Shown here: positions 3,589-60,050 of the stretch, piece after piece
Position numbering within the stretch: position 1 is the first letter of the stretch
Layout: every line of letters begins with the position of its first letter
DNA from: Sphaerolaimus hirsutus
Taxonomy: Eukaryota; Nematoda; Chromadorea; Monhysterida; Sphaerolaimidae
Assembly: GCA_964036195.1 (NCBI GenBank)
Contig: OZ038456.1
Location: forward strand, 7,626,001-7,690,000
Reading direction: 5' to 3'
Length of the DNA: 64,000 nucleotides
Position numbers and translations under genes: made by a program
The notes under the pieces: model-generated
The model's database searches: none
Seen by the model: only the letters and a program-made list of their open reading frames with translations
What the model was told of the DNA's origin: nothing

Positions 3589-6500
3589 TCACTTCATCTC
3601 ATTCAAATAAGTCTTCACTTCTTTCGTGAATTCCTTGTCCAAATGCACCCAGGCAGCCTTCTCAGCTGGACTAACGTTGCCCAAATGACCTTCCAGAAAC
3701 TGAAAAGCGTAGACATTTGCAGGTGATAATGAGCTGACAATGTCAAATGCTTATCCAAAATACGTTTTCTGTACTTGACTAGTTTTAAAAAGTATACATA
3801 AAGGTGAATATAGTTACTTTTTATCGAAGAAATCAGAGTTGTTAAAAGGTACGTACGTTTACTCGAAAAATACGCGTACGCGAGTACGCGGTAAATACAT
3901 TTACATATAACTTTTCAAAAAAAATACCGTATGCACTTGTACGCGTACACTTTTAAAGCGTACACGTACGGAAAATGTATTTATGAAAGTTCAATGTGGG
4001 GACATATTTATAAAGTAACTACACTGCTATGTATTTACAGAAGTGGTTCCATCGAATATTTTAGATATGCGGGGGGGGGCGCCTTTAAAAATTTCAAAAT
4101 TCACAACCAAATCGAAATGGTTGTGGAGACAATGGATGTGGTAAACGAGTCGGGAGAACGATGATTTTTATCTCCTAGAAAAAAGAGACCTTGAAAACTA
4201 TATAATCTGTCATTTGCTGTTAGGAAAACATACGTTCTGCTGTACACGTATGAAAAAGTTCCCACTTTTACACATTCTATAAAGAAAAGTAGTCGTTTCT
4301 TCACTCACAATAAAGTACCCACATTTACGCGTACGTACGAGTAAAAAAAAAGTATTTTACATTTTCTATACTTTTAAAAAAGTTCAGTAATTCTAACAAC
4401 TCTGGAAGAAATGTAAACATATGTACCATATGCCCTTGAAATATCTCCCGGGTGTTTATTTTTTTCATAGTGGTAATTTTGTGGGGGCGCGATCAAACAA
4501 AGGGGTTTACTATTTCACCAGAGTGTTCTTTTTGTTGGTAACTTAGGTAAACATTTTAAAATGCTACAATAACCGCCATGTATAAGAGTATATTGACTTA
4601 TAGTCTCTCCCAGTATGTTGATGGCACAAACCCTGTCCTGATGGTGCTGTGCATAATAGTCTACTGCCAGAATGAGATGTCTGTCAACTGCAGTTGATGG
4701 GGATTAAGAATAAGTCATTCTAGTAAACTCAAATGCCTTCAATGCCGATTTATGAGTTTACCAACATCTCGCAGTAAACTAGTGTGCGCACACGCTATGT
4801 AACACAGTCATTGTTTTTAACGTGTGTTCTGCATTACCCGGATCATAAACCACAGCTTTTGTCATCTACATTCTCTTTACACTCTTTTTAGGGGGGAGGG
4901 GGTATTTCGAGGGAGGGGGTTATTGATTCATAGTGGCCATGTTGAGGGGAATTTCGTGGAAATACAGTACTCAAGTATACATATTTATGAGTATACTCGG
5001 CGGACCGCAAAGTATGCACCCAAAATTATTTATGTCTTGGTCGATAACGCTCGAGCTGGATACTTATGTATGCACTTTCACAAAAAGCAAGATGAGGAAT
5101 GTTTTTCCCGTCATGTTTTTTATTCTTTTTTTACTTGAATTTTCGTTTAATGATGACGTCATGATGGAGTGTTTCCGCCAGAAGAATGCATAGCATGCGG
5201 TCCGCCGAGTATAAAAACAAATACATGTTTAAAACACCTATCCTCTACACTATACAGAGTCCTAACTTCACCCCAGGGGACAGATTTAATACTCCCTACA
5301 GATTTGTAGGGTAGGGCGTACGCCCGATAGATTTTTTAACGTTCAGCCGCATCGACGCACAAGCACCGAGGGCAAGCCGGTTAGTAAAATATACGAAACC
5401 ATCCCTTAAGGTCGCCGATATTGCAATATGACGTATATCGCTTCGATTTTGGCCCAGAAATCACTATTTCGTCATTTCTTGGCCGTCTGCCAATTCGCTT
5501 TTTATTTTATTTTGTTGGGCGGGTTACTCGCATAAGTCGCGCTTTTGTACGCTCGTGCATGCATTTCTTTCTTGTCGCTGCCCTCATGGTTTCGGTTGCA
5601 GACAGTGAACACTAAAAAAGTGACCACCTGACTACACAAAAGCGCGACTTATGCGAGTAACCCGCCCGACAAAATAAAAAAAAGCGAATTGGGAGACGGC
5701 CAAGAAATGACGAAATAGTGATTTCTGGGCCAAACTCGAAGCGATATACGTCATATTGCAATATCGGCGACCTTAATGGATGGTTTCGTATATTTTACAA
5801 ACCACCTTGCTCGCGGTGCATGTGCGTTGATGCGGCTGAACTTTAAAAAATCTACATGGCGTACGCCCTACCCTACAAATTTGTAGGGAGACTTAAATCT
5901 GGCCCCAGACCCCACCCCCCAAAAAAGAGCTCACCTTAACCCAGGCGGGCCAAAAGGCCTCCCAATGGGCGGGCTGCATGTGGAACGGCTTATGTTTGTT
6001 GACCATTTCCCTGGCGTAGGCGCGCATCAGCGAGGGCTGGTGCATCGCCGCCACGCTCAGGTGCACCGCCAGAAGTAGACGCAGCCCCTGGGCGGTTATT
6101 GGGACGGTTATGGTAGTGTGACTTGAGACTGAGAGCCTGTTGTGTTGTATGGTAGTGGTGTTGATTTGGTGAACTCGTGAAAATGTGGTTTGGAGTGCAT
6201 TTCCTCGAATTACCCCCCGGGGGTTTATTTTTTCAGAGTGAAAATTTTGAGAGAAAAACGTGAAAAATGCAACAATAACCACCATTTATAAGTTTTTACA
6301 GCCTCATATTAGGATGTAGACGGTATAATAAACGATGTTCTAACGTAACACAGTATGTGTTTTGAACGTCTGTTATGCATTTCCCGGACCACAAATTCAA
6401 AGTGCCCATTTTGATGGGGGGTATTTCGAGGAAATACGGTAGTTTGGACACCTTTGGGTTTACCTGGTGCCGTTTCGGCAAATTGAGAAGTGGGAAGGCA

Positions 6501-9500
6501 AAATGGGAAAAGTGAAGTGAAATGGCAGGTAGATTAGCAAAAGCGAAGTGAATTGAGAAGTAAAATAGCAAAAGCGAAAAGAAATTACCTACTTCTCATT
6601 TTTATTTATTTTTACTTCGCTTTTGCCAATTCACTTCGCATTTGCCGTTTTACTTCTCACTTCTCAATTTGCGGAACTGACCCCAGAATGAATTATCTTT
6701 GAATGAATGAGCAGTTGACAGACTTGGGGAATCAACCCCTGGTCAATTAAAATAAAACATCCAGACTCCCTGAAGAATTGGGGACAATTTCAAACGTTCC
6801 CGTTTGCACAAGTGTATTGCGCACTGCCATTAACGATGCCCAAAAAAGATTCGAAAATTCGAAAAAGTTATCGAATTTTCGAATTTTTTAGGACCTTTTG
6901 AATTTTTAATCACGCAGTGAAAAAAAATCGATTTTTTTCAAAAGATTCAAAAATTCGAAAACTTTTTCGAATTTTCGAATTTTGTTGGTGATTTTTGTTT
7001 AAAATGAGTAAAAATGCAGAGCCTTAACTAAAATATCATATTCACATGTATTTTTTGTAGCAGCAAAAGCAAAATATTTATGCGGTAACAGCGGTAAGGC
7101 TGTAAAACGTTCAAAAAGTCTGACCAAAAATACGAAAATATAATAATTTGATGCAAAAAATTCGAAAAGTAACAAAAAGATTCGAAAATTCGAAAAGTAA
7201 TAAAAAAGATTTGAAAATTTGAAAATTCAAAAACTAAATTCGAAAATTCAAAAACTATTTCCGGAAAAAATTTGAAAAGTCATTTTAGAAAAAATACTTA
7301 AAAATTTAAATACTTTTTTCGAGAGGGTTTGCCATTGTTAACTGCCATAGGTGTTCACTGTGTAAAATTCAGTGTAAACATTGTGAACGAAAGTGTGGAT
7401 AAAAATTGCACCTGACTGATAAAAAAACAACTTTGGAAAAGTTTGCTCCCAGGCTCCCAGTGCTACCTCTTGTTACTCGCTGTTATTGTCTTGTCGCTGA
7501 AATAACGGCTTTACGCACACCAGTTGACAATTGACATCGGTTGTCAACTGGGTCGAGTGGTTTCCATTCGGATTTTAGTGGCGCTAGTGATGGAATGGCG
7601 CCATGGCGCTGGCATCATTTGAGAGCGCCAGAGGACGCCGCGCCATGGCACACTTTTTCTTTTGCGCCATTGACGCCTGGCGTCCACTTGGTAAATTGCG
7701 CCCGGCGCCGCCTCCTAAACGAGCGCCAAAATGGCGCCAGCAGGGTCTCAAGGCGATTATTGCAAAAAAAAGTACCGTTTTTCCTCGTAATACCCCCGGG
7801 GGGTTTATTTTTTCAAAGTGAGAATTTTGAGGGGGGTTAAACGAGGGGGGGGGGTATTTCGAGGGGGGGGGGGGTTATTATTTCGCCAGAAATTTTTTGA
7901 AAACCAAGTACTAAATTGTCGTCTGAAACGTACGCAGACATCGAAAATGCAACAAAAATCGCCATTTATAAGACTCTAAAGACTTGTATAAGTGTGTAGA
8001 CGTATAATCACTGTTCTCACATAACAGAGTCATCGTTTTTAACGTGTGTTCTGCATTACCCAGATGACAAACCGCAGCCTTTGTCATTTACGTTCACTAT
8101 ACACTAAATTTGGGGGGGGGGGGGTATTTCGAGGGGGGGTTTATAAGGATATTTTTTCCATTGATCCATGGAAGTTGACAAAAATTGAATTTCGACGATT
8201 TGAATCCACTGATTTATCAGTTTGCACGTTCAACGTTACATCATTTTCAGCTTCTGATTTTTTTCCGATTCAGCAGATGAACCATTCAACGAGTTATAAT
8301 CACCCACTTGCGCCACTTAATCATTTTATCGGCGAAAATCGGTTTTCGACAGATACCGTATTTCCTCAAAATACCCCCCCCCCCTCGAAATACCCCCCCC
8401 CCCCCCCTCGAAATACCCCCCTCAAAATGGACACTATGAACTTATAAGGTAAATACTCATACATTACACAGCGACAGGCAGAAAATTGAGGGTATTGACA
8501 TAGGTTTGCCTATACGGGAGGTATCCAGAGAAAAGACCTTCTGAGTGGCAATTGTGCGCTTGCGTGCAAATTTTTTCACAAAACTTTGGAAATTTGTAGT
8601 GAAAGTGACATTTTCCTGAACTTTTCTTGTCTCACCCCAGGAAGGGGGGCCCCCGCCCCCCCTGGATACAACCCTGCAGATACTGGTTCTTCAACCAATG
8701 TTTTCACACACACTCTAATGCCAACGGTTGATTTTAATATCAAGCAAAAATATAACATTTTGTCACACATGTTCGCTTTCTTGATGTTGCCACAAACAAA
8801 AATGAAGCCAGCCTGGGGATGGAAAACAACACCTTTGAATGACCTGATTTTTTAATGGCAGAGATTTTTCCAGTTATACCTATTTTAATGGGAGTGTTTG
8901 TTTACAGAGGCTGGTGACCCTGTAAAATGCCATGTAAACTGTCATGCAAAGTGTCAAGAGAAGGTGACAAGACACATACTGCCTAGACATTGTTTTATTC
9001 ATATTCATTCATTCATTCCAATCCAAAAGTGAAGTTTAATCAACTACGTTACATCTTTTTGTGTCAGTGCCAACATTGTGGAATGTATTTGACGTGGTCT
9101 GTGTGTGTTTCATTCTGTAGATTTGTATAGCAACTTGAGTTGAGAAACTTGACTTTAGACATCATTGAATAGATATGACAAGCAATTACCGTATTTCCTC
9201 GAAATACCCCCCCCCCCCTCGAAATAAACCCCCCAAAATGGGCACTATGAATTTGTGGTCCTGGAAATGCATAACAGACAAATGCAAATGTTAGAACATC
9301 GTTTATACCGTCTACATCCTTATATAAGGCTGTAAAAACTTAAAAATGGTGGTTTTTGTTGCATTTTTCACGTTTTTCTCTCAAAATTTCCACTCTGAAC
9401 AAATAAACCTCCCGGGGGTAATTCGAGGAAATACGGTATGTGAAATTGCGTGCAAATACCTAGTGCAAAGGTACTAAAAAATTCTGGCTACCGTATTTCT

Positions 9501-23371: not shown

Positions 23372-23594
23372 GGTGCCAGTTCCGCAAATTGAGAAGTAAA
23401 TAAATGGCAAATGCGAAATGAATTGAGAAGACAATTGGCAAAAGCGAAGTGAAATGGCAAGTGAATTGGCAAAAGCGACGCAAAACAAATAAAGGAAAAA
23501 GTTATTTCCATTAGCTTTTGCCAATTTCCTTCCTTATCCACTTCTCACTTCTCATTTCACTTCGCATTTCCCATTTCACTTCTCACTTCTCCAG
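23372..23594. mobile_element. MITE of the GGTGCCAG family, right end truncated
   Basis: The left end GGTGCCAGTTCCGCAAATTG matches the protease intron 6 element. The right side keeps ACTTCTCACTTCTC but lacks the final GCGGAACTGG. Confidence 0.75.
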
Positions 23595-24850: not shown

Positions 24851-25897
24851 CAGAGTTGTTAAAAGGTACGTACGTTTACTCAAAAATACGCGTACGCGAG
24901 TACGCGGTAAATACATTTACATATACTTTTCAAAAAAATACCATAGACACTTGTACCGTACACTTTCAAAGCGTACGCGTACGGAAAATGTATGTATGAA
25001 AATTCAATGTGTCAATGTGGGACATATTTATAACGTAACAACCGTATTTCTCGAAATACCCCCCGGGGGGTGATTGTTTCATAGTGGTTCCGAGAGGGGG
25101 GGGGGGTTAAGCGAGGGGGGGTATTTCGAGGGGGGGGGTTATTATTTCACAAGAAAATTTTTGAAAACCAAGTACGAAATTGTCGTCTGAAACGTACGCA
25201 GACGTCGAAAAATGCAACAAAAACCGCGATTTATAAGGTTCTGTAGACTAATATTAGTATGTAGATGGTATATACACTGTTCAACGTGACACCGACATTG
25301 TTTTCACGTGTGTTCTGCAGTACACAGAACACAAACTACAGTTATTGTCATGTACGTTCCCTTTACACTCAATTTGGGGGGGGGTATTTCGAGGGGGGGG
25401 GTGATTGTTTCATAGTGGTCCCGAGAGGGGGGGTCAAACGAGGGGGGGGGGGTATTTCGAGGAAATACGGTACACTGCTTGCTATGTATTTACAGACTTG
25501 GTTACATTGAATATTTTAGATATGCGGGGTTGTGCCTTTAAAAATTTCAAAATTCGCAACCAAATCGAAATGGTTGTGGAGTCAATAGATGTGGTAAACG
25601 AGTTGGGAGAACGATGATTTTTATCTCCTAGAAAAAAGAGACCTTGAAAACTATATAATCTGTCATTTGCTTATAGAAAAACATATGTTGTGCTGTACAT
25701 GTATGAAAAAGTGCCCATTTTTACACATTCTATGAAGAAAAGTAGTTGTTTCTACACTCAAAAAAAGTACCCACATTTACGCGTACGTACGAGTAAAAAA
25801 AAGTATTTTACATTTTCTATACTTTGGGGTGAGTAAAAAAAAATACTTTATGTTTACATATACTTTAAAAAAAAATTCAGTAGTTCTAACAACTCTG
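24851..25897. mobile_element. hAT-type MITE (CAGAGTTG) with nested TA element
   Basis: The 8-bp duplication TTATAGTG lies at 24843-24850 and 25898-25905. It is the same family as 3834-4404. Comparison with that copy shows that 25042-25470 was inserted later. Confidence 0.9.
25042..25470. mobile_element. CCGTATTT element nested in a hAT MITE
   Basis: The uninterrupted paralogue (about 4010-4030) reads GTAACTACACTGC. Here the element separates GTAAC(A/T)A from TACACTGC. The target was therefore TA, duplicated on insertion, and the element itself starts CCGTATTT and ends AAATACGG. Confidence 0.9.
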
Positions 25898-31352: not shown

Positions 31353-32180
31353 CAGAGTTGCGAAAAACGTATTTACGTTTACCCGAAATACCCGGTTATT
31401 CAGGTATTTATACTTACATTTACGTTTATGCTTTCCAAAAATACCGTTACGCTTTTGTTACGTTTTCCTGGCACAATTACCCGGGTACCAGAGAAAACGT
31501 AAAATATATGCTACATGGAACCGTATTGTTTGACAAATGTAGTGTATTATGATAAGTTCAACATGTTCTAATGTTGAGGAGTTCTATTCCGCAATTGGAG
31601 AACTCAAACACCAATTTGTAAGTGAAAAGTAAAAAGTTGAAGGAAATTATTTTTGTGAGGGAGAACTGAAATGCAAATAAAAAGTAATTTGAATGTTTTT
31701 TCATGACTGGCCATTTGTCTTTTTACTTGCCATTTCACTTACAAATTTACTTTTCTTTCAATTTTTACTTGCTTTTCAACCTGCCATTACTTCTCACTCA
31801 TACATTTTTTTAGTTCTCCTGTTACGGAAATTAGCACCTTAAGGCCCTACACCCACTAGTTGACAACGACGAAAAATGTCAACTCCAATCCCCATTCAAT
31901 ATCCCGATCCCATCATTCTAAATATATATATAAAATACGGGTAAGCAGAAAATGTCGATGGAGATCATATGAACATCCATAATGTTGTAAAAAAAAACAT
32001 TGTGTTTTTTGTATTCTCTGATAGCGGAAGCACTTAATATAATTTTTACGTTAAGTTTTATTTTACGTTTTCCCCGGTATTTTAAAATACTTTACGTTTT
32101 AGTATTTATACTTTTGATTTGAAAAAGGTATTTACGTTTACGTTTACATTTTCCAAAAATACAGTATTTGTACAACTCTG
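31353..32180. mobile_element. hAT-type MITE, CAGAGTTG / ACGTTTACG-rich
   Basis: CAGAGTTGCGAAAAACG ... TTTGTACAACTCTG with 8-bp duplication GTAGGTAC (31345-31352, 32181-32188). The ends are rich in TTTACGTTTACG. The interior contains an inverted repeat of AAGTGAAAAGTAAAAAG words at about 31610-31800. Confidence 0.9.
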
Positions 32181-36633: not shown

Positions 36634-39600
36634 ATGCACAAGTTTGCAGTGTTCTGCGTGCTTGCAACATTCACAGTGTTGGCACGCAGCCAACAGGTTG
36701 TCAATGTGACTGGTGACAGCAGTGTACAATCTACAAATTGGCCTCAGAACTACGGGAATGAGGAGGTTCATAGGTGGACATTCCAGCGTGTGGATTCTGC
36801 ATGGTGGATGGTGAGATTTTACATGGTTGTTGAAACGTATTTAGGTACCTTTCTCGATAAATATGTATACTCGAGTACACAAATATGTTTAAGTTTTCTC
36901 TGAAAAAGGTCGTCGCTTTATGTATACTTTTAACATACTTGAGAACAGAAAATGTATTTCGGGTAGCCTTTTTCAAGGCATAAAGAAGAAAAAATCTTCT
37001 AAAAATCACATTTTCCAGAAACTACACGTGCACGTCGACAGCGATTTCTCGCTCGAACAGAGCGACAATGGCGACTGCTATGACTTCGTCGCGATATACG
37101 ATGGTATTACGCCGCCCACCGAAATTTGCGGTCACGCTCAGCCTCAGGCCACGCCACGAATAAGTGGGTGCTCAGCACTGGGGGCAGCCCCAGGCCCTGT
37201 AAAAAGCCCTGTAAAGTGTCATGCAAAATGTCAAAAGTCATGCAAAGTGTCACAAGTCATGTAGAATGCCCTGTCAAATGTCATGCAAAGTGTCAAAAGT
37301 CATGTAAAATGCCCTGCCAAATGTCATGAAAAGTGTCAAGAGTCATGTAAAATGCCCTGCCAAATGTCATGCAAAGTGTCAAAGGTCATGTAAAATGCCC
37401 TGCAAATGGCAACCGAGTTTGACATGACTTTACATGAGCTCTGACTGCATGACCTTTGAAATTTTACAGGGTCTGGTATTGGTGCCAGGTGTAAAAAGGT
37501 ATTTACCTTTAGCAGAAATACCCGGGTATTCACCAACCAGCGGTAGCATAAGCTGGGTGACATCCGTTAAAGTGTTTTAAAGTAATCTTTAAAAATGCAC
37601 AAAAACACTTTTTGCAGAAGCGTGTGGCAGCACGCCGCCAGCCGATTTCGAGGCCACCGTATCCACGATTATTTACAGTGGATTTCTGCACGGATACCGC
37701 GGTCACTAAGACTGGGTTCAAGCTCACAGTTTCTACAGGTATTTATTAAAGCGCTTTAGGTAGAATTGAGAGTGTGAAAATTTTTGGGTTTGGCTTTACT
37801 CAGCCACGCATTAAACTCGTTGAGTTTCTGTGTTTTTGTTTTACACTGAAGCACGGAACTGAAAGACTTCGAAAAACTCTAAACACATGGAAACACAGAA
37901 ACACAGAAAATACAGAGATAGTTTTATTGAGTTTTTTGCCGTTAAAATCAAAGAATACTGCCGTATTTGCTTGAATAGTCCCCCTCTTGAATAATTTCCC
38001 CCTCGAATAATCCCTCCCCCTGTAAGACGAGTGAGGAAATAATAATTCCCCCCCTTTAAAAATCCCCCTTTAAAGATTTGATTTATTTGCTGTACCTTAT
38101 TTTAACAAAAATTGCACATTATTGTGTTTATAAAGCATATTTCTTAAAATGAGTTGATAGAAACATGCTTGAAAATTTTGACAAAAGAATAATTCCCCCC
38201 TCCTTGAATAATTCCACCCTCGAATAGTTCCCCCCTCAAAAATGTCTGACGAAATAATAATCCCCCAGGGAGATTATTCAAGCAAATACGGTATGCTGTA
38301 TTTCACGGATGCAAAAATGTATGTGTACAGATCAATAGATTGATGCACACATTAGGCTTCCAAATTCAAGGACAAAAAAGTATCAAAATACAATTTATTA
38401 TCTATGGGACATATGACAATGATGGGAATCGTGATTGGAGCATTGAAAAGACACTTGCACCCACCCTTAGTTTCCAAAAGGATTTGGAAGTAAATTTGCC
38501 CCACACAGTTCGCACAATTCATTTTGAGTGTGCTTAGTCTGCCCGTATCAGCCAGTGGAGTAAAATGTGCATAAAGCCGAGATTACAGCTCGGCGTGATT
38601 TTGACGTAAAATGATGATGTAAAATGACGTCGCAAAATAAATTACATGAGTGTGGATTACAGGTCTACAATTTTTTATGGATAATATATGAATCAATACA
38701 TTAATCGTGTTCAATACTGAGTGTTATCAGCCAAAGCTAGAGAAAAGTGAAAAATTCAATTTTTTTCCATTTTACATCAGGGAACCAACTTTACATTTTA
38801 TGTCAATGGTTGCATGCAATCATTGATGTGAAATGTAAGATTAGTTCCCTGATGTAAAATGATGTAAAATACAAAAAAAATGAATTTTTTAATTTGTTCT
38901 AGCTGTGGCTGACAATACACAGTATTGGACACGATTAAGGTATTGATTCATATATCATACATAAAAAATTGTAGACCTGTAGCATCATCCACACTCATGT
39001 AATAAATTTTATGATGTAATTTTATGTCATCATTTTACATCAAATAAGAGTAAAAGACCCTGTAAAACGTTATGTGTCATGTAAATGACCCTGTGAAGTG
39101 TCATGTATTAAGCGGGAATTAGAGCTCAGCGTCGATTCGACGTGGAATGACGACGTGAAATGATGTCGTGTAATTAATTTCACGACATCATTTCACGTCG
39201 TCATTTCACGTCGAATCGACGCTGAGCTCTAATTCCCGCTTAAGGTTGCGAACTACCGTATTTCTTCTAATAGAAGGGCACCCTTCTATTTTTTCATCAA
39301 CTTTTTTACCCGCCCTTGTATTGGAGACACCCTTCTATTGGAGACTGCCCTTCTATTTTTTTCGCTGATTATTTAACAATTTTTTTTTCCATTTTGCCAA
39401 GATTTTTCAAAGTGTTATGTCAGAGACAGTTCATAGGATTATGATTTATAGAGTTCATTCAACATTTGATGTTAAAATAGCACCAAATCAATGGATAAAA
39501 GCCACTAAAGTACAGTGTCTGCTGATATTTTCTTAATTTTTTCATGCATTTGGCACAATTCCAGCACTTTGTGTACCTTCTGTTGGAGACCGCCTTTTGG

Positions 39601-42600: not shown

Positions 42601-45600
42601 TAAAAGGAGGTTGTTACTTTGGGAGTAAAGTTAAACACTGTGGAGGTACATGGAAGCACATTATCTCAATATTATATATTACAGCAACATATGTCAGCTT
42701 ATTCACCCATGGTAGCACATAGAAATGGATGTTTTGATACTAAAAATGCAACAAAACCAATGAAAACAACCACCAATGTCAATTTGTGTGTGAAATTGCG
42801 CGCTTGCACGCAAAAATTTTGCAAAATACTTAGTGCTTAGTACAAAAAATTTCGGCCGATGTTTTAAAAAAAAAAAAAACATTTCAGACGTCATGTTTTT
42901 GTTTTTTTTAAACGTTTTTTAAAAAAAAAAACGTTTAAAAAAAAACATCGGCCAACCCTAGGTATATCTTCATTTTGGGCGATTTTCTATGTATTTCAAA
43001 AATGCCAAAAATATCACATTTAATTGTTTTTTATCCATACTTTCCTTTAATTTTATTATATTCTCTTTTTGAGAGATATTTCGAGACAACTCAATGTATA
43101 TGAGTCAGTCTACGAGTCAATAGCCACTCCAGGAACAAAAGCTGGACACCGAAAAAAAAATGAAAATTGTGAAAATGGTCCTAAGGTACTCCAATGGGTC
43201 CAGTAAGTTATGCAATACATGTAAAATTTTCATTCGTATATATCGCATATACTTGAAAGTGAATATTTCCAAAATGGGGCATTTCTGACTAAATTTGCTA
43301 TTTGGTGCCCAACTATCAATACATAATAGCTATATTTTATACCATTGGAAAGCTGAAATTGTGAACTTTCATTATCCACTGCTGACCAGTAGGTTCAATG
43401 TCATAAGTTTATACATAAGGTTTCAAAATGTACTGCATGAACTAATCTGGGTCAATCAAATCACATGTGAGGCCAAAACTAAGGAGACGTAACGGCTATA
43501 TTTTGTACCGTTGCGAAGCTGAGAACCTCCTCTTTCAGAATCCACAGCCTCCCCAGAAGCTCGCGTTAGCATTTTTATACCTAAGATTTCAAAACGTGCT
43601 GCACACACTACTCCTGGTTCCGACCTCACATTTGATGCTATCGACCCTCGATTATGCCACACAGCACGTTTTGAAATCTTATGCTAACGCGAGCCTCTGG
43701 GGAGGCTGTGGATTCTGAAAGAGGATGTTCTCAGCTTTGCAATGGTATAAAATATAGCCGTTACGTCTCCTTAGTTCCGGCCTCACATGAGATGCAATCA
43801 CCCAAGAGTAGTGCATGCAGCACGTTTTGAAATCTTAGGTATAAAATCGTGACAGTGAACCTTCTTGAGAGTGGTAGATTCTGAAAAAGAATTTTCTCAG
43901 CTTTCCAATGGTATAGACCACAGCATTTAGTTTTTCCTGATTCCGACCTAACATTTGATGCTATCAACCCTCGATTAGGCCACACAGCACGTTTTGAAAT
44001 CTTAGGTATAAAAATGCTAACACGAGCCTCTGGGGAGGCTGTGGATTCTGAAAGGGGATGTTCTCAGCTTTGCAACGGTATAAAATATAGCCGTTACATC
44101 TCCTTAGTTCTGGCCTCACATGAGATGCGATCACCCAAGAGTAGTGCATGCATCACGTTTTGAAATCTTAGGTATAAAATCGTGACCGTGAACCTTCTTG
44201 AGAGTGGTAGATTCTGAAAGAGAATTTTCTCAGCTTTCCAATGGTATAGACCACAGCATTTAGTTTTTCCTGGTTCCGACCTCACATGTGATGCTATCGA
44301 CCCTCGATTAGGCCACACAGCATGTTTTGAATACTTAGGTATAAAAATGCTAATGCAAGCCTCTGGGGAGGCTGTGGATGCTGAAAGGGGATGTTCTCAG
44401 CTTCGCAACGGTAAAAAAATATAGCCGTTACATCTCCTTAGTTCCGGCCTCACATGAGATGCGATCACCCAAGAGTAGTGCATGCAGCACGTTTTGAAAT
44501 CTTAGGTATAAAATAGTGACCGTGAACCTTCTTGAGAGTGGTAGATTCTGAAAGAGAATTTTCTCAGCTTTCCAATGGTATAGACCACAGCATTTAGTTT
44601 TTCCTGATTCCGACCTCACATTTGATGCTATCGACCCTCGATTAGGCCACACAGCACGTTTTGAAATCTTAGGTATAAAAATGCTAACGCGAGCCTCTGG
44701 GGAGGCTGTGGATTCTGAAAGGGGATGTTCTCAGCTTCGCAACGGTACAAAATATAGCCATTACATCTCCTTAGTTCTGGCCTCACATGAGATGCGATCA
44801 CCCAAGAGTAGTGCATGCAGCACGTTTTGAAATCTTAGGTATAAAATCGTGACCGTGAACCTTTATGAGAGTGGTAGATTCTGAAAGAGAATTTTCTCAG
44901 CTTTCCAATGGTATAGACCACAGCATTTAGTTTTTCCTGGTTCCGACCTCACATGTGATGCTATCGACCCTCGATTAGGCCACACAGCACGTTTTGAAAT
45001 CTTAGGTATAAAAATGCTAACGCGAGCCTCTGGGGAGGCTGTGGATTCTGAAAGGGGATGTTCTCAGCTTCGCAACGGTATAAAATATAGCCATTACATC
45101 TCCTTAGTTCTGGCCTCACATGAGATGCGATCACCCAAGAGTAGTGCATGCAGCACGTTTTGAAATCTTAGGTATAAAATCGTGACCGTGAACCTTCTTG
45201 AGAGTGGTAGATTCTGAAAGAGAATTTTCTCAGCTTTCCAATGGTATAGACCACAGCATTTAGTTTTTCCTGATTCCGACCTCACATTTGATGCTATCGA
45301 CCCTCGATTAGGCCACACAGCACGTTTTGAAATCTTAGGTATAAAAATGCTAACGTGAGCCTCTGGGGAGGCTGTGGATTCTGAAAGGGGATGTTCTCAG
45401 CTTCGCAACGGTATACAATATAGCCATTACATCTCCTTAGTTCTGGCCTCACATGAGATGCGATCACCCAAGAGTAGTGCATGAGGCACGTTTTGAAATC
45501 TTAGGTATAAAATCGTGACAGTGAACCTTCTTGAGAGTGGTAGATTCTGAAAGAGAATTTTCTCAGCTTTCCAATGGTATAGACCACAGCATTTAGTTTT

Positions 45601-48600
45601 TCCTGGTTCCGACCTCACATGTGATGCTATCGACCCTCGATTAGGCCATACAGCACGTTTTGAATACTTAGGTATAAAAATGCTAACGCAAGCCTCTGGG
45701 GAGGCTGTGGATTCTGAAAGGGGATGTTCTCAGCTTCGCAACGGTATAAAATATAGCCATTACATCTCCTTAGTTCTGGCCTCACATGAGATGCGATCAC
45801 CCAAGAGTAGTGCATGCAGCACGTTTTGAAATCTTAGGTATAAAATCGTGACAGTGAACCTTCTTGAGAGTGGTAGATTCTGAAAGAGAATTTTCTCAGC
45901 TTTCCAATGGTATAGACCACAGCATTTAGTTTTTCCTGGTTCCTACCTCACATGTGATGCTATCGACCCTCGATTAGGCCATACAGCACGTTTTGAATAC
46001 TTAGGTATAAAAATGCTAACGCAAGCCTCTGGGGAGGCTGTGGATTCTGAAAGGGGATGTTCTCAGCTTCGCAACGGTATAAAATATAGCCATTACATCT
46101 CCTTAGTTCCGGCCCCACATGAGATGCGATCACCCAAGAGTAGTGCATGCAGCACGTTTTGAAATCTTAGGTATAAAATCGTGACTGTGAACCTTCTTGA
46201 GAGTGGTAGATTCTGAAAGAGATATTTCTCAGCTTTCCAATGGTATAGACCACAGCATTTAGTTTTTCCTGGTTCCGACCTCACATGTGATGCTATCGAC
46301 CCTCGATTAGGCCACACAGCACGTTTTAAAATCTTAGGTATAAAAATGCTAACGCGAGCCTCTGGGGAGGCTGTGGATTCTGAAAGGGGATGTTCTCAGC
46401 ATCACAACGGTATAAAATATTGCCGTTACGTCTCCTTAGTTCCGGCCCCACATGAGATGTGATCACCCAAGAGTAGTGCGCGCAGCATGTTTTGAAATCT
46501 TAGGTATAAATATGCTAACGCGAGCTTCTGGGGGGGCTGTGGATTCTGAAAGAGGATGTTCTCAGCTACGCAACGGTATAAAATATAGCTGTTACGTCTC
46601 CTTAGTTCCAGCCTCACATGAGATGCGATCACCCAAGAGTAGTGCATGCAGCACGTTTTGAAATCTTAGGTATAAAATCGTGACTGTGAACCTCCTTGAG
46701 AGTGGTAGATTCTGAAAGAGAATTTTCTCAGCTTTCCAATGGTATAGACCACAGCATTTAGTTTTTCCTGGTTCCGACCTCACATGTGATGCTATCGACC
46801 CTCGATTAGGCCACACAGCACGTTTTAAAATCTTAGGTATAAAAATGCTAACGCGAGCCTCTGGGGAGGCTGTGGATTCTGAAAGGGGATGTTCTCAGCA
46901 TCACAACGGTATAAAATATTGCCGTTACGTCTCCTTAGTTCCGGCCCCACATGAGATGTGATCACCCAAGAGTAGTGCACGCAGCATGTTTTGAAATCTT
47001 AGGTATAAATATGCTAACGCGAGCTTCTGGGGGGGCTGTGGATTCTGAAAGAGGATGTTCTCAGCTACGCAACGGTATAAAATATAGCTGTTACGTCTCC
47101 TTAGTTCCGGCCTCACATGAGATGTGATCACCCAAGAGTAGTGCGCGCAGCATGTTTTAAAATCTTAGGTATAAATATGCTAACGCGAGCTTCTGGGGGG
47201 GCTGTGGATTCTGAAAGAGGATGTTCTCAGCTACGCAACGGTATAAAATATAGCCGTTACGTCTCCTTAGTTCCGGCCTCACATGAGATGTGATCACCCA
47301 AGAGTAGTGCGCGCAGCATGTTTTAAAATCTTAGGTATAAATATGCTAACGCGAGCTTCTGGGGAGGCTGTGGATTCTGAAAGAGGATGTTCTCAGCTAC
47401 GCAACAGTATAAAATATAGCCATTACGTCTCCTTAGTTTTGGCCTCAGTCTTGATGCAATCACCTCATGTCACCATTCCATGCTAAAATGCTCAATTTTG
47501 CTATATATAAGAGGAAACAGAAAAAATGAAATATCATTTTTTTGTCAGTGTTATACAAGCAAGACTTTAAGAAAATAAAATTTTTTTTGATGTGTCCAAC
47601 TTTTGGCTACTGACTCGTAGACTGACTCATATATATACACATTCAATAAACCCCATTTTTCAATGCTAGCCCCATACAACAAAAAATAGCAAAAGAATCA
47701 CACCGCAGTCGATCGTGGGTGGGGAAGAAGCGGTTGCGCACAGCTACCCCTGGCAAGTTTGGCTGGTTGCCACGGGCAGGTGGAGTTGCGGAGCCTCACT
47801 CATCGACCCATCCTGGGTGCTCACCGCCGCCCATTGCGTCGAGGATGGCGGGTGCGTTTTGCGGCAAAAATGAAAAGCGCCATGACGCTGGCGTTTGGCG
47901 TTAGCGCCAAACGACGCCCCGGTGGTGAAAGCGCCATGGTGCTTATAAGCTTTGCGCCATTTTGTTGTAGCTTCAATGACGTTTGGCGCTGGAGGTCAGA
48001 AAAGCGCAATGACGCTGGTGTTTGGCGTTAGCGCCAAAAAAACCGCCTCGGCGGAGAAAGCGCCATGGTGCTTTTGCAGCTTTGCGCCATTTTGCTGTAG
48101 CTCCGTTGGCGTTCGGTGCTGGGGGTCAGAAAAGTGCCATGGCGATAACCTTGGCGTTTCTTCCTTCACTACCCCCCCAAAAAAAAACAAAAAACAAAAA
48201 CAAACACCAACATCAACTGCAGATCAGCACTGCCGGCATCAGCATTTTCCGCCCGTCTGGGCGCCCACGACAAAAACAGCCCAGAACAAACGCGCGCTGT
48301 CAGCGAAGTGCCAGTCCCGCAAATTGAGAAGTGAGATATAAAATGGCAAATAGCATTCAAAAAAATCACCGATTTTTTTGAGAATATATATAAATATATC
48401 ACTCCAAATTATAAATTAATTATAAATAATTATAATTAATAAATTATAAATTATAAATATATAAATATATAAAAATATTTTTATTATATAAATTATATAT
48501 ATTTAAAATATATGTAAACATATCACACAGAATTTGAAAAATATATAAATATATATTAATTACGGGTTATTTAAATCTAGTGTGATTTTCGAAAATATAA

Positions 48601-51600
48601 ATGATGGTTTTTTTTTAAATGCTAATGGCAAATGCGAAGTGAATTGCAGAGTTGTACAAATACTGGTATTTTTGGAAAACGTAAACGTAAATGTAAATAC
48701 CTTTTCTAAATTGTGAGTATCAATACTGAAAACGTAAAATACTTTTAAAATACCCGGGTAAACGTAAAAAAAACGTAAACGTAAAAATTTCTTTGAAGTG
48801 CACCACCCATGATCAAGTGCATTGAAAAACACTTTTGTTTTTCCTATTTCAACCATTTCTCTGCTGATACGATCACATTCTTGCTTACCTATGTTATTTA
48901 TCAAACAATTAAGAAGCTAATTGGCCAAAAACAAATTGTACTTATTGTATCAGAAAAAAGTTCTAAAATGTACTGTTTTTGTGTATTTTCCATACGATTT
49001 TTACGTTTTCTCTGGTACCCGGGTAATTGTGCCAGGAAAACGTAACAAAACGTAATGGTATTTTTGGAAAACGTAAACGTAAACGTAAATATAAATACCC
49101 AAATAATCGGGTATTTCGGGTAAACGTAAATACGTTTTTCCAACTCTGGTGAATTGAGAAGTGAAATGAGAAGAAAATTGGAAAAGCGAAGGGAAATGGC
49201 ATGTAAATTGGCAAAAGCGGAATAAAAAATAAAATAAAAAGTAAATTCCCTTCGCTTTTGTTAATTTCCTTCTCAATTCATGTCTTACTTCTCATTTCAC
49301 TTGCATTTGCCATTTTACTTGTCACTTCCCAATTTGCGGAACTGGCCCCAGGTCCACATGCACGCGCAATATGGAAATAGTTCGGGCAATGATATAGCAC
49401 TGATCAAATTGGCAACCCCCGCAACGATTACGTGCGTTTTTGCCCAATTTTTGTGGGCGTACATGACAATTTTTAATATTGAAATGTATTTCGCAGGCCA
49501 AAAGTGAAGTCGATTTGTCTGCCGACCAGTTCTGATTCGTGGAGGGATGATAACACCACTGTGGTTGTTTCTGGTTGGTTACAGAGTTAATAAAATACTG
49601 GTATTTTTGGATGATAATTAATGAAAGATTGGTATGGTAATTAATGGACACACCCCTAGGAAATTGATGAGAAAAATGTGTTGTCCCATTAATGAGGCTG
49701 CATAGAACAAATAACCCTGACAACAAAAAAACATGGTCTAGTTTTTATGATAACATAATTTATGACATTTGACACTTGTCCTAGACCGTGAAGCTCATTA
49801 AATCAAGATCAAGGCATTACATGTAAAATATTTCACTTACAACCCACAAACACTGTTGAAAAATTAAAAAAAATTAACAGCTAATTTTCCTATTTAACAA
49901 TGTTTCACACATTAGTTATCATTAACACTGGGCAGTTGGCATTGAAAACACAAATTGTAGTGACTAGACTTTGCAGCTGTCAGGAGCATTTAAAAAAACC
50001 ACAAGCCTTTCAATTCCACAGGCTGGGGAACCTTATCCCAAGGTGGCTCCACTTCCCAAAAACTCCAGCATGTAGTAGTTCAATGTGACATCACCCAGTG
50101 CGAGTCGGCCTATCAAAGCATGAGGCCCATTGCCGACAATGAAATGTGCGCCGATGGCCCAGGCAAGGACTCTTGTCAGGTATTAGGGGACTTGCATTCC
50201 AAAAATGCATATACCGTATTACCTCGAATTAACCCCCCCTTGAATTAACCCCCCCCTCGAAATACCCCCCCTAAATTTCGGCTGAGGAAATAATAAACCC
50301 CCCCCTCGAAATACCCCCCCTAAAATTGAGTGTAACGTGAACGTACATGACAAATACCGCAGTTTGTGATCTGTACAATGCAGAACACACGTTAAAACTG
50401 ATGATTAAGTGACGTTAGGGAAGGTTTTTTGTGTATATACCAGAGTTGGAAAAACGTATTTACGTTTACCCAAAATACCTGGTTATTTGGTTACTTATAT
50501 TTACGTTTACGTTTACGTTTTCCAAAAATACCATTATGTTTTGTTACGTTTTCCTAACCAAAATACCCGGGTACTATGGAAAACGTAAAACGTCTGATCT
50601 TTAGTAGCTTTTTAGTGGCCGTTCCCTCAGACGAAACTGCATATTTCCATGAATTCTCTACAGATTTTGATTGTCGAGCACTAAAAATGATCAGAATGAT
50701 GTGGCGATCCCATTAGTGCAGCGATTAGGATGATTACAAACCATAGCTAAAACATTTTATAAACTCCGATCATAGTAACCATTGTCTACCGCCCATAGTC
50801 GATGCCACACAGATAATGTAGGTAACTGTATTTTGTCATAATCTGACAACAAATTATGAACAAAATAGTGAAAGAAATGTCATATTTATGATTAAAAATT
50901 CAACACAATTCTAGGTACTCTCTTCAGATAGGTGTGGCAGATTTCAAAGTATATTTGATGGGGTGTTTTTCCAAAAAAAGACTAAAAACAGTTGTAAAAG
51001 TTTCAATGCACTGAAATTACTGTCTTCAAGTTCCCCTTACATCGGTGGCTGTAGAGTGGCCATTTAGCCATGGGCTTGTGAAATTTGCTAAAATAATCAA
51101 TGTGGGAACAAAATAATTTGAATGAAACTTATGTATCTGATTTAATTACAAAAAGGTGTAATTTTTGCTCAATTTTTATGTTTATCTCATCGCTGTTTGT
51201 GTTAGATCATTATCATTTGTTATAGTTGTCTCACTCATGTTGTTGATTATGGTGAGCATGTAGTGCTAAAGACATGAAGATATTGCATGGACATCAGCGA
51301 TTCCAAAGCACAGTGGCAAATATGACACATATAACATTTTTACGTTTACGCTTTTTTTTACGTATTCCTTGGTATTTTAAAAATACCTTACATTTTAGTA
51401 TTTATACTTTTGATTTGGAAAATGTATTTACGTTTACGTTTACGTTTTCTAAAAATACCAGTATTTGTACAACTCTGGTATATACAGTTATATATGCCTA
51501 TAAACACGTATACATCTATGTAATTGTTCGATTTTTCTACGTCTGCGTATGGGGAATTTCCGAAAATTTCTGGCGAAATAATAGACCCCCCCCCTCGAAT

Positions 51601-53872
51601 TATCCCCCCCTCAAATTTTGCTGGCGAAATAATAAACCCCCTGGGGGTATTTCGAGGTAATACGGTATCCACAATTTTCAATATTTCAAAATCGCATTTT
51701 AAAGTTTAGCAATGGCCCGACGGCGCCATGTTAAGGCGACAAAGATTGCCCCGCACTTTTTAGATAGATCGGACATTTCTCTACAAGTTTTGTATCTACC
51801 AATTTTGTCGGCCGGCAAATACTTACGGAGTTATTATATTTTAGAAATCACCTAAAATTGGGAACTGAACATTTGGAATTAAAAGTTAAATAACTTCTTA
51901 ATGGTGCATCGTAGGCAAAAACCAAGTACACCACTGCAAAGCCCGAGTCTAAGAGTACCCCTACCTAAATACCTAAGCGTATTTGATATATAGTGCAAAA
52001 TAGATTTGGAGATTCACGTGTGTACTTTTGGAAATGAAACTTTTTTTCTATGGGAATTCCGACCTGCTCTTCACGAGCGATCCGAATCACGCCTGCACTT
52101 TTGGAAATGAAACTATTTTTTGGATCTGTGCATTTTTGATATGAGGCTCCGGCGGTCTGAGATGGATTTATGCATTTTCGACATGAAAGTCCTGTTTTTC
52201 ATAGGGGACTGGTCATGGATATGTGAACTTTAGATGTGAAGATTGCGATTTTTCTGAAAACCGGTACCACTGTATCTCAGGAACAAAATGGACTATAACG
52301 CTGATTTTTTTTCTAAAATGGGCAAAACTATACGTGAATGTCGAATCCACGCCTAACTAGATTTTTATGGATTTGGTGCTCGTGTACTTTTGGAATGGAT
52401 CTCCCCATTTAGTCTGCTTCACAGAAGTTATGGGTCTTTTACCATATTGTGTCCAATGGACTTTTTCCAAGCCCGCTCCACATTAGACTAGGGATGGCTG
52501 GTGTTTTTTAACCGTCTCTAAAAAAAATGTATGTGTTTTTTTAAACAGAGGCATCGAAACTGTTGTTTTTTTATTAAAAAAACGTCAGCCAAATTTTTTT
52601 GTATTTAAGCACCAGGTATTTTGCATTTTTTGCGTTCAGGCAAGCAATTCACAGACACATCACCATTGGTGGTGGTTGTTTTCATTGGTTTTGAGGCATT
52701 TTTAAGGTAAAAATAATAATAATAATTTGTGTAATAATGAGCCGTGATATTTTATTGTAGAATACAATATCCAGCCAATGTGCTCCCACATACTTCTACA
52801 GTGTGAGACATCACTGTCAATGTATTAGCCTTCTGTTATAATCTCATCTAAGCCCTATTCCATGCAAAACTTGACTTGGAGTCACAAACATCCAACAAAA
52901 GGCAATATACGTAACAAGTCGATAAAAAATGGATATTTTTGACAGAAATAATGTTTTTTATGCTATCCCATTGCTCCACAGCCATTCTATGGCTATATTA
53001 AACATCACAAAATACAGGCAATTGTTTGATATACCTGTATAGCTTTTAAAAAAAACATTTTATTGTTAAAAAAACGTTTTAAATTGAAAAAAAGTTTTTT
53101 AACAAACAGGGTCGTTAAAAATATAGTTGGCTATCCCTACATCAGACTGTTTGCTGTGAAAATCACTTCACAGATCATCAGGGCAGATCGCAGATATTGA
53201 GCTGAAGTGACTTCACAATTATTCATGGCACATCACACACACATTGAGTTAAACATAGAAAAATTATGTGTGATGCACCATGAGTGTAATGTGGTGCTTT
53301 CACGGACACATGATGTCAATCACAGACCCTGTAAAGTAGTGTCAAACGCCATGCAAAATGTCAAGCAGTGTTAATTGTCATGGTAAATGTAAAGTTAAGT
53401 GCCAATTGTCATGCAAAGTTCAGTAATACAACTTTTTTTGGCTTTGATTGACATTTTACATTTACTTTAGACAGTCTGGGACTGCCGCATTGTGTAGTGC
53501 ATTTTATGAACATTGACAATCGTGATGATAGTTGAAGTATGTGGATTATGGAAGTGTCAACAAACAGGCCACACCCATCATTCTTCACGGTGCATCACAC
53601 ACCAATTGATAGCAGCGGAAATCACTTCACTGTGCCTCACAGCGAATCATACTCACTGATTTCTAGTCACTTCACAGTCCTTCACCTATCTTCACATTCT
53701 ACCCCACTTGCAGGGTGACAGTGGGGGACCCCTAATTGCCCGCAAAAATGGTCGCTACGTTCTGGCTGGAGTAGTTTCTTGGGGCTATGGATGTGCCAAA
53801 GTTGGCTATCCAGGTGTTTATGCTCATGTGCCCTACTACAGGGATTGGATCCAAGAGAAAAGTGGCCTGTGA
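36634..53872 (+). CDS. Secreted CUB-domain trypsin-like serine protease
   Basis: Exons: 36634-36810 (signal peptide [22 protein letters not shown] start), 37019-about 37163 (CUB core [10 protein letters not shown]), about 37618-37738 (CUB end [17 protein letters not shown]), 41964-42067 (linker), 47709-47851 (IVGG start, catalytic His in LTAAHC), 48223-48307, 49352-49431 (catalytic Asp in NDIALIKL), 49497-49573, 50022-50179 and 53714-53872 (catalytic Ser in GDSGGP, stop TGA). All later junctions obey GT-AG and phase; only the exon 2/3 junction is unresolved. Asp in GKDSCQ before the active Ser predicts trypsin-like cleavage after Arg/Lys. The protein is about 400 residues. The residue before IVGG is Ser (GMSQS), not the usual Arg/Lys, so activation may differ or a small exon may be missing between 42067 and 47709. 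CUB domains bind proteins or glycans; digestion, moulting or immunity roles are all possible. Confidence 0.9.
37185..37480. repeat. CCCTGTAAAATG foldback in protease intron 2
   Basis: Tandem CATGCAAAGTGTCAAAAGTC / ATGTAAAATGCCCTG units end in a reversed TTTTACAGGGTCTGG. The family recurs at about 3305, 30395, 41445, 53330 and 59737. Confidence 0.7.
37961..38291. mobile_element. CCGTATTT element, TTGCTTGAATA subfamily (D)
   Basis: CCGTATTTGCTTGAATAGTC ... GATTATTCAAGCAAATACGG with TA on the right. C-runs are shorter than in A/B. It lies in protease intron 3. Confidence 0.8.
38575..39050. repeat. Imperfect ~470-bp palindrome
   Basis: The arms contain ATTACATGAGTGTGGAT and ATCCACACTCATGTAAT, and GGGAACCAACTTTACATTT-like sequence near the centre (about 38820). 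The outer words (GCTCGGCGTGATTTTGACG) resemble the adjacent TTAA palindrome. Confidence 0.75.
39108..39243. mobile_element. TTAA-flanked near-perfect palindromic MITE
   Basis: It reads TTAAGCGGGAATTAGAGCTC ... GAGCTCTAATTCCCGCTTAA, with arms of about 63 bp and a central TAATTAATT. TTAA at both ends fits a piggyBac-type target. Confidence 0.8.
39256..39600. mobile_element. CCGTATTT element, subfamily C, right end missing
   Basis: CCGTATTTCTTCTAATAGAA with GGGCACCCTTCTATT words. It merges into unrelated sequence before any right terminus. Confidence 0.65.
39935..40855. repeat. Foldback with ~260-bp arms
   Basis: The left arm from TGTACATGGTCCGGCTGAAA to about 40200 is reversed at about 40590-40855 (ending GCCGGACCATGTACA). 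The arms contain the GTGCTCGCCATTCG and CCACAGTTCCGCAGT words. No transposase is visible in the about 390-bp middle. Confidence 0.85.
40856..41885. repeat. Duplicated block, copy 2
   Basis: It parallels 29530-30840 without the 29603-30031 insertion. It ends shortly before protease exon 4. Confidence 0.75.
42295..42960. mobile_element. hAT-type element, TAGGGTTGG termini
   Basis: TAGGGTTGGAAAAAAAACG ... CATCGGCCAACCCTA with 8-bp duplication GGTATATC (42287-42294, 42961-42968). T- and A-runs form the subterminal hairpins. A related copy is 52489-53139; decayed ones lie near 57412 and 60397-61045. Confidence 0.85.
43099..47635. mobile_element. TIR-bounded element carrying a satellite array
   Basis: The left TATGAGTCAGTCTACGAGTC and right GACTCGTAGACTGACTCATA are inverted, each next to AAAGCTGGACACC / GTGTCCAACTTTTGG. 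Everything between is mostly the tandem array. It lies wholly in protease intron 4. Confidence 0.75.
43300..47460. repeat. 333-bp dimeric satellite array
   Basis: Repeat period is about 333 bp, made of two diverged ~166-bp halves. One half carries GGTATAGACCACAGCATTTA, the other GGGGAGGCTGTGGATTCTG. Both share CACGTTTTGAAATCTTAGG. About ten dimers lie in one orientation. The leftmost units (43300-about 43640) are reversed. Toward the right (46400-47430) only the second half repeats. Open frames recur with the period and are not genes. Confidence 0.9.
47860..48165. repeat. GCGCC-rich MITE in protease intron 5
   Basis: AAAGCGCCATGACGCTGGCG and GCGCCAAACG words occur in direct copies, starting about 10 bp after the exon 5 donor. 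Confidence 0.65.
48308..49351. mobile_element. MITE that constitutes protease intron 6
   Basis: The intron begins GTGCCAGTCCCGCAAATTG and ends CAATTTGCGGAACTGGCCCC plus AG. These are inverted copies of one another and match the termini of the elements at 6466-6686 and 23372-23594. Exon 6 (ending at 48307, GAA) and exon 7 (starting at 49352, GTC) join in phase 0. A hAT MITE (48647-49148) is nested inside, so the core element is about 530 bp. Confidence 0.85.
48647..49148. mobile_element. hAT-type MITE nested in intron 6
   Basis: CAGAGTTGTACAAATACTGG ... CGTTTTTCCAACTCTG with 8-bp duplication GTGAATTG (48639-48646, 49149-49156). Confidence 0.9.
50214..51665. mobile_element. CCGTATTA-type TA element with nested hAT MITE
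   Basis: CCGTATTACCTCGAATTAAC ... TCGAGGTAATACGG. Its interior is interrupted at GTATATAC. It lies in protease intron 9. Confidence 0.85.
50441..51477. mobile_element. hAT-type MITE, CAGAGTTG / ACGTTTACG-rich
   Basis: The 8-bp duplication GTATATAC lies at 50433-50440 and 51478-51485. The relative at 36176-36186 shows the single, uninterrupted target. Confidence 0.92.
51666..52488. other. Intronic sequence, no exon seen
   Basis: Protease intron 9. Repeated phrases such as TTTGGAAATGAAAC occur at about 52020-52110, with no recognisable terminus. Confidence 0.4.
52489..53139. mobile_element. hAT-type element, TAGGGATGG termini
   Basis: TAGGGATGGCTGGTG ... GTTGGCTATCCCTA with flanks CATTAGAC / CATCAGAC, an 8-bp duplication with one change. 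It is related to 42295-42960. Confidence 0.8.
53140..53713. repeat. CACTTCACAG-rich foldback in protease intron 9
   Basis: AAATCACTTCACAG words in both directions bracket a CCTGTAAAGTAG foldback (about 53330-53475). Confidence 0.5.
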
Positions 53873-59600: not shown

Positions 59601-60050
59601 TGCCTGTGTAAAAATGTGAATTTTTTGTACAGCTTTTGAAAGATAACTAAAAACGCAGAAACTTTCTCATCAAAATTTGTCAATAAATACTTTCCTTGTC
59701 ACTTGTCTACTCGAGGAACTGGCCCCAGGTTCCACTCCCAGACCCTGTAAAATGTTAAGCAAAGTTAGGTAAAATGCCCTGTAAAATGGCAAACGCAGTT
59801 TGCCACTTTCCAGGGCATTTTACATGACTTTTTACACTTTGCTAACATTTTACATTTACAGAATCTGGGACAGTGCCCCCAGTTCATACCTTCAAAAGCA
59901 AAAAGAAAAAAACCCACAAAATCACACCTTCCCCACTGGGATTATTCTGACAATCTTTCATCCATGTCGGTATGCGCTCAAGTGGAATATAACCGCTACC
60001 GCACGCGTAGACTTTGCGCTTTTCGTTTAGGGGCATTTTCAGGTAGTGAT
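56584..60050 (-). CDS. MACROD: MACROD-type macro-domain ADP-ribosyl hydrolase (5' partial)
   Basis: Exons on the minus strand: 60050-59928 ([13 protein letters not shown], the segment before the macro domain), 59603-59499 ([19 protein letters not shown]), 59109-58990 ([11 protein letters not shown]), 58476-58373 ([20 protein letters not shown]), 57316-57206 ([18 protein letters not shown]), then either 57015-56902 or 56664-56584. All junctions are GT-AG and phases match, giving about 215-225 residues. The NAAN, GGGGVDGAIH and ISTGVYGYP loops that bind ADP-ribose are intact. The Asp of VDGAIH and following His are the residues associated with catalysis in this family. MACROD enzymes remove mono-ADP-ribose from acidic residues and deacetylate O-acetyl-ADP-ribose. 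The 5' exon(s), which could encode a targeting peptide, were not found upstream of 60050. Introns are full of small transposons. Confidence 0.93.
56843..56848 (-). promoter_or_regulatory. Polyadenylation signal AATAAA
   Basis: AATAAA on the minus strand, about 55 nt after the stop codon of the proximal terminal exon, so that exon could end a transcript by itself. Confidence 0.55.
56902..57015 (-). CDS. MACROD: MACROD proximal terminal exon (alternative a)
   Basis: After acceptor TTTCGTTGCAG it reads [19 protein letters not shown] and continues LMGDCLKL with a longer tail, ending WYLQD plus TAG, 37 codons plus stop. It is homologous to the distal exon over the first ~22 residues but diverged, and has the same entry phase. 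Both cannot be joined in one message without passing a stop. Confidence 0.85.
   Translation of the reverse strand: MERIILCVFVPKNEDIYRRLMGDCLKLPLDDIWYLQD
57377..58086. mobile_element. TIR element CAGTGGCGTAGCCAG with nested repeats
   Basis: CAGTGGCGTAGCCAGCATTT ... CCTGGCTACGCCACTG. It has G/C-run interiors and a decayed TAGGAATGGCCGG-type element near 57420. It lies in a MACROD intron. The related unit 61395-61837 has CAGGGACGTAGCCAGG ends. Confidence 0.8.
58594..58900. mobile_element. TACTCGGCAGAC-type TIR element, decayed
   Basis: TACTCGGCAGACGGCAAAGT ... CACTGCCCGCCGCAAAAAGT, with the ATGATGACGCCATGATAG core, matches 4992-5214. It lies in a MACROD intron. Confidence 0.6.
59207..59246 (-). 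pseudogene. Fragment of a duplicated MACROD exon
   Basis: About 40 bp are nearly identical to part of the 58476-58373 exon (core AACAGTCGCTGCAACGGGCC against AACAGTCGCTGCAGCGGGCC). They lie in the upstream intron, without usable splice sites and with a nearby stop. Confidence 0.7.
59284..59455. mobile_element. hAT-like MITE with ATCGATATCG repeats
   Basis: TAGGGTTGGGACGATAT ... ATTGTTCCAACCTGA. The interior is (ATCGAT)-rich. The flanks match only 6 of 8. Confidence 0.65.
59737..59869. repeat. CCCTGTAAAATG foldback
   Basis: CCCAGACCCTGTAAAATG ... CAGAATCTGGGA with inverted CATTTTACAGGGC words in the MACROD intron 59604-59927. Confidence 0.75.

Follow-up and report, generated by a model that had tools for sequence, protein, structure and literature searches.

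Can a transposon that lands in a coding exon become an intron, and is this how one intron of a protease gene of the nematode Sphaerolaimus hirsutus came about? The gene lies on the plus strand of a 64,000-nucleotide stretch (assembly GCA_964036195.1, contig OZ038456.1, positions 7,626,001 to 7,690,000), here called the window. Six exons, when joined, give a 233-residue S1 protease domain that aligns full length with solved trypsins and plasminogens (best PDB match E 5.6e-44). We put at roughly 0.8 the probability that the intron at 48308-49351 was made by a transposon, here called X, inserting at a CAG within the exon. The exons of the gene and the parts of this intron are the following.

47709..47851, plus strand: S1 protease exon with His57
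48223..48307, plus strand: S1 protease exon upstream of the intron, 28 residues
48305..48307, plus strand: GAA codon at the position of the left target copy (CAG in paralogues L052 and L053; GAG in L054)
48308..49351, plus strand: GT..AG intron of phase 0 between residues 87 and 88 (chymotrypsin numbering), a miniature inverted-repeat transposable element (MITE) of family X with two nested insertions
48308..48351, plus strand: left terminus of X, GTGCCAGTCCCGCAAATTG..., giving the donor GT
48353..48622, unstranded: AT-rich MITE flanked by TA, with ends GCATTYAAAAAAA, also in the C1 paralogue
48647..49148, unstranded: hAT-type MITE with ends CAGAGTTG and an 8-bp duplication, GTGAATTG, at 48639-48646 and 49149-49156
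49305..49348, plus strand: right terminus of X, ...CAATTTGCGGAACTGGCCC
49349..49351, plus strand: CAG read as the right target copy, giving the acceptor AG
49352..49431, plus strand: S1 protease exon downstream of the intron, 26 residues
49497..49573, plus strand: S1 protease exon
50022..50179, plus strand: S1 protease exon
53714..53871, plus strand: S1 protease exon with Ser195

The intron starts with GTGCCAGTCCCGCAAATTG and finishes with CAATTTGCGGAACTGGCCCCAG. An earlier note on this DNA had claimed that its ends are inverted copies of each other, that they coincide with the splice junctions and that the left terminus provides the donor GT, and all of this was borne out: the arms at 48310-48351 and 49305-49346 (42 nt) are 88% complementary, and the splice dinucleotides are GT at 48308-48309 and AG at 49350-49351. 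The phase-0 join that was said to restore a trypsin segment is equally exact, with excision joining GAA|GTC and yielding the full S1 domain. The acceptor was another matter, since the AG that the note had assigned to the right terminus is better read as part of a second copy of a 3-bp CAG target. The description of the intron as being itself a transposon stands for a single MITE that runs from donor to acceptor, and has to be amended for the two later inserts that the intron also contains. Without these inserts the intron core measures 262 bp and shows 83.6% identity to X copy B of the window and 72.1% to copy A (219 columns each). It is hardly credible that X sits within a pre-existing intron whose splice sites its ends match by accident. 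MITEs are abundant in the window, and other introns contain them without matching ends, as such an accident would suppose, yet both ends are exact to the base, the end-to-end terminal-repeat score is equalled by 9 of 20,000 random GT..AG intervals of the same window, and X-type elements fill the intron between residues 87 and 88 in six paralogues.

The paralogues carry much of the argument. A protein search of the genome for S1 exons gave at least 153 matches, from which 20 regions were chosen and compared together with the C1 paralogue (L010) and the window gene, 22 loci in total. At residues 87/88 an intron is present in six of them (the window gene, L010, L052, L053, L054 and L071), the reading is uninterrupted in 14 (including L064 and, by eye, L067), and two (L055 and L070) are unscorable, with no exon there; L060 to L063 show a bare, uninterrupted CAG-GTG at this codon. 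The elements in the six introns are of at least three kinds: X in the window gene and L010, a related family, X2, in L052 and L071, and a third sequence in L053 and L054, the left ends of which (GTGCCAGTACCGCA and GTGCCAGTTCCACA) resemble X and the remainder of which gives no blastn alignment to X. On the tree, the window gene, L010, L052, L053 and L055 form one clade (support 0.992), and L071 is placed far off beside L064 (0.80). The L071 insert is a 192-bp X2 element, 84% identical to the window copy at 59729, and its tree neighbour L064 is without it; given the distance of L071 from the window clade, the L071 intron was gained separately. Within the window clade, the three kinds of element would reflect either separate insertions or replacement of one element by another.

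A second site, 23 bp upstream, adds to this pattern. L053 carries there an insert of 176 bp (ACACCAG|GTGCCACTCCC ... GAGTGCCCCCAG|AACAAACG), which is X2-type and is also found, enlarged, in L054. Both inserts of L053 sit between CAGs and both joins are in frame, as is the sequence left after removal of the two, ...AHNKYTPEQTRAASQVHVHELYN. The upstream site is uninterrupted in the window gene, L010 and L052, and in the window the empty site is directly visible.

48281..48292, plus strand: empty site CCAGAACAAACG, with a single CAG, where L053 and L054 carry the X2-type insert

Inserts of the same type were found in other genes. A scan that covered the window and the fetched loci gave 49 candidate GT..AG elements before merging, and three of these stood out by their open reading. 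A globin gene (L012:2075-2244, minus strand) holds an X2 insert of 170 bp with CAG on both sides; 132 codons are open across the join, which falls at residue 66, inside the stretch covered by a Pfam globin match (residues 1-95, E 2.1e-9). In L069, another S1 gene, the element lies ahead of the protease domain; all of the Pfam match is on the right side of the join, which leaves open frame as the sole backing for the left exon. L017 has an element in an SR-rich reading frame without Pfam support. Three features of introners, the transposons that create introns, are seen here: an element reaching both splice junctions, as in the intron at 48308-49351; uninterrupted homologous sites, as at 48281-48292 and in 14 of the 20 scorable loci at 87/88; and the same family at non-homologous introns, as with X2-type elements at two S1 codons, in the globin gene and in L069. 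For family X itself, the only introns seen are those of the window gene and of its C1 copy. The paralogue comparison and the inserts in other genes thus support, on sequence grounds, the suggestion of the earlier note that this family generates introns.

How the elements choose their sites was examined across the 348-Mb genome, where an 81-base query from the left end of X has at least 41 matches (40 of 138 candidates scored). The survey sample of 40 genome stretches, in two sets of 20, yielded 39 elements with both ends, some of them near-duplicates of one another, and one stretch (L049) contains window copy A. CWG (CAG or CTG) adjoins 61 of the 78 ends, and it is present at both ends of 25 of the 39 copies, where the two sides agree as a direct repeat in 15. 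Counting in the last G of CWG, the termini of X and X2 are GGGGCC-type at one end and GGTGCC-type at the other, and 24 of the 39 copies pair a GT end with a GG end. Elements of the two families measure about 150-260 bp. One paralogous empty site, that of the L053/L054 insert, agrees with a CWG duplication.

The mechanism that we propose would use these properties directly. X and X2 would be short non-autonomous elements that insert at CWG and duplicate it, like the NuwaI transposons by which they may be mobilised, with one end starting with GG and the opposite end mostly with GT. If one of them inserts at an exonic CAG with its GT end first, the arrangement would become exon-CAG|GT...C-CAG|exon, because the CAG is duplicated and the left end is GT: the first CAG would remain exon, the element would supply the donor GT and the second CAG would supply the acceptor AG, and splicing would restore the message with its length unchanged. 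In the window gene the insertion would have occurred at the codon of residue 87 before this gene and its C1 copy were separated by duplication. X would later have received two other MITEs, and the left CAG would have drifted to GAA (Gln to Glu). We also lean, though not strongly, towards a wider reading, in which a CWG-targeting (NuwaI-type) element is one base short of an introner: its CAG target would serve both as the end of the upstream exon and as the new acceptor, and the donor would arise by a G-to-T change in one of the termini, at its second base. The GT/GG asymmetry, common even outside genes, would then record the past success of spliceable copies, in an animal that may still be gaining introns, repeatedly at the same codon.

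The nested insertions give part of the order of events. In the C1 paralogue this intron lacks the hAT-type insert, and the empty site of that MITE is visible there, which makes the hAT MITE younger than X. The assignment of the nested element at 48647-49148 to hAT-type MITEs follows from its 8-bp duplication and CAG...CTG-type ends. This family (ends CAGAGTTG / CAACTCTG) has five copies in the window, at 48647-49148, 31353-32180, 50441-51477, 3834-4404 and 24851-25897, all with exact 8-bp duplications (three computed, two by eye) and ends of that type.

Several observations weigh against an origin of the intron by insertion of X at an exonic CAG. The left target copy reads GAA instead of CAG, and the donor, GAA|GTGCCA, looks weak by eye. 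In the survey, the target copies disagree in 10 of the 25 X elements with CWG at both ends, and too few agree for a strict 3-bp duplication; a second scan, of 23 GT-type elements, found agreement in 15. Of 23 X copies taken from loci picked regardless of genes, 2 have open reading across the join that reaches the 95% level set by random joins, no clear excess over the 5% expected, and we conclude from this that most X copies lie outside exons. The X2 insert of L052 begins GGGCC and gives no GT at the junction. L052 (G000 C6:1599001-1604500) is the closest C6 paralogue, and its insert begins GGGCCTATCC, compared with GTGCCTATCC in L071. Its donor may have been lost, another splice pair may be used, or the insert may be unspliced; the internal GTAAAACG and TTTTACAG, taken as a splice pair, would add 12 codons in frame (by eye).

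The L052 junction is also what one would expect if the inserts simply broke genes, so that the loci were pseudogenes and nothing was spliced. To the same effect, an X copy in L024 interrupts a candidate exon of what we take, from its motif, to be a potassium-channel-tetramerisation-like domain, and this CTG-flanked copy has no AG, as the CAG rule predicts. We nevertheless consider wholesale gene breakage very unlikely: even with X and the two elements nested in it, the window gene keeps open, protease-like reading in its other exons, and the frame is kept at the joins of C1, C6 and the globin gene. L024 itself (G000 C521:9700-12500) lies on a small unplaced contig and has two or more X copies about 600 bp or less apart, near the channel-tetramerisation-like exon and a repeated proline-rich frame.

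Other animals may provide a further objection. A query made from an alignment of 16 exon-sized segments matched 734 short proteins, of which 120, all metagenomic fragments, were examined. Among the listed fragments with at least five residues upstream, 24 of 99 lose detectable homology just before residue 88 (one of these, P0240, is a false positive), and in six (P0125, P0128, P0142, P0147, P0154 and P0174, of two sequence families) 13 or more unrelated residues precede. These fragments suggest an intron at codon 87/88 in other animals too. The earlier note had named an intron of unrelated sequence at the same position in distant relatives as grounds for giving up its reading, and to the extent that protein fragments can speak to it, that objection holds in part. 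A final Q, as a CAG acceptor would give, occurs in 12 of the 24 homology-losing fragments, but also in 12 of 64 with homologous upstream sequence (first classification), and Q, K or E together are final in 35 of the 64 versus 15 of the 24; Q is a weak sign of an intron because it is common there without one.

One could accordingly suppose an ancient 87/88 intron in which X inserted at the CAG of the old acceptor, after which one deletion brought the GT of the old donor together with that of X and left only X; the fragments and the GAA of the left flank would suit this history. We find it improbable, since 14 of the 20 scorable paralogues are without the intron, the L071 insert is independent, the final Q is weak evidence, and the inserts 23 bp upstream and in the globin gene are left unexplained. 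Taken by themselves the fragments would favour an ancient intron with X as a later occupant, a preference that the paralogue comparison overturns. The known S1 introns near Asp102 that the cited part of PMC7914634 gives are at 109/110 (phase 0) and 149 (phase 1), not at 87/88. A hot spot at codon 87/88 is the likelier reading, because independent insertions at this codon within the genome are joined by the parallel gains described in the portion of PMC4457414 drawn on here.

The window holds further copies of the two families.

6467..6686, plus strand: X copy A, near a globin exon of the minus strand
23373..23591, plus strand: X copy B, with CAG on both sides, the right arm mostly lost and the final CAG kept
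37179..37488, unstranded: MITE of family X2
59691..59728, plus strand: right-end fragment of an X copy, upstream of the Macro-domain exon of a minus-strand gene
59729..59882, unstranded: MITE of family X2, related to X

Elements at 6466-6686 and 23372-23594 had been credited in the earlier note with the same termini as the intron. Both are real X copies, with the difference that the second is without most of its right arm. Copy A lies upstream, in the direction of the gene, of the globin exon at 5931-6099 (minus strand). Pfam found nothing around copy B. Excising copies A and B as introns gave no unusual open frame in the window, the smaller open side being 34 codons (A, minus strand) and 30 codons (B, plus strand), where controls have their 95% level at 38. 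From the window alone, no target duplication longer than 2 bp common to X copies A and C was found. At 59691-59882 the right end of a decayed X copy, at CCCCAG, is the precise insertion point of the X2 element, in an intron of the Macro-domain gene on the minus strand. A search of viral contigs for relatives of X, the hAT MITE and the protease exons found none.

Around the protease gene itself, Pfam found no clear exon of the gene on the plus strand of 37708-47700 that would bear out the number 6 given to the intron in the earlier note, scans of the window with Rfam and for tRNAs gave no hits, and the short protease exons gave no matches when used alone as protein-search queries. A long tandem array (periods of 166 bp and related lengths) occupies 43600-47450, immediately 5' of the protease exons. 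A second intron made by a transposable element, at 49574 (intron 49574-50021), was considered and rejected. The intron starts with eight bases that directly precede a hAT-type terminus (9 bases past the donor), as though a target duplication contained the donor; tblastn matches end at residue 129, the place of this intron, in 13 of 20 fetched S1 loci, which makes the boundary one that looks common to other S1 genes and the hAT element a later guest, its terminus near the donor being probably a coincidence. A fish-like, intronless chymotrypsin beside a poly-C end in a record labelled as a Desulfobacterales metagenome-assembled genome (L001, JAQYVL010000146.1) resembles complementary DNA, is probably contamination or a chimera and, being intronless, is uninformative on introns.

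Introners are known, and the cited passages of Gozashti et al. 2022 (PMC9860276) report them in only two animal groups among animals and land plants. The introners with terminal inverted repeats (TIRs) and target-site duplications that these passages describe are likewise non-autonomous elements filling introns to the splice sites, with one splice site from the element, the other from the target duplication and the length of the message unchanged; here, in contrast, the duplicated target would be a CWG of 3 bp, with its CAG copy serving as the acceptor, and several related families occur at one codon. NuwaI belongs to the PHIS (PIF/Harbinger-related) superfamily and, in the sections of PMC4482050 cited here, is confined to animals, with CWG duplications and TIRs usually starting GGG. 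X and X2 resemble NuwaI in a probable CWG target duplication, in TIRs beginning with G's and in an animal host, but are about 150-260 bp long, have one end with GT rather than GG, and would form introns, which are not among the NuwaI traits described in those sections; judged by CWG and terminal marks alone, they are candidate members of NuwaI. Fungal introner-like elements, as presented in the cited part of PMC4457414, also entered separately at identical or neighbouring intron positions. There the comparison is between fungal species and the sites fall within 15 bp; here one codon is shared by paralogues of one animal genome. The introns of notothenioid slc26a2, in the excerpted text of PMC12357937, are a further case of animal introns from transposon-like sequence at convergent insertion sites, with a different element, gene and host. 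Among the introner papers listed by searches of PubMed Central, a scope outside which subscription papers and preprints fall, none was found to describe CWG-flanked or NuwaI-type introners. X and X2 look like new families of a known kind, in animals, where few have been reported, and the host possibly belongs within the groups already reported.

The origin of introns is an old question, and in this one animal genome inserts and an empty site stand side by side in coding genes. A simple rule, CAG on both sides and GT from the element, would explain how the message survives the insertion. That one codon was used repeatedly is a caution, since introns found at the same position may have separate origins.

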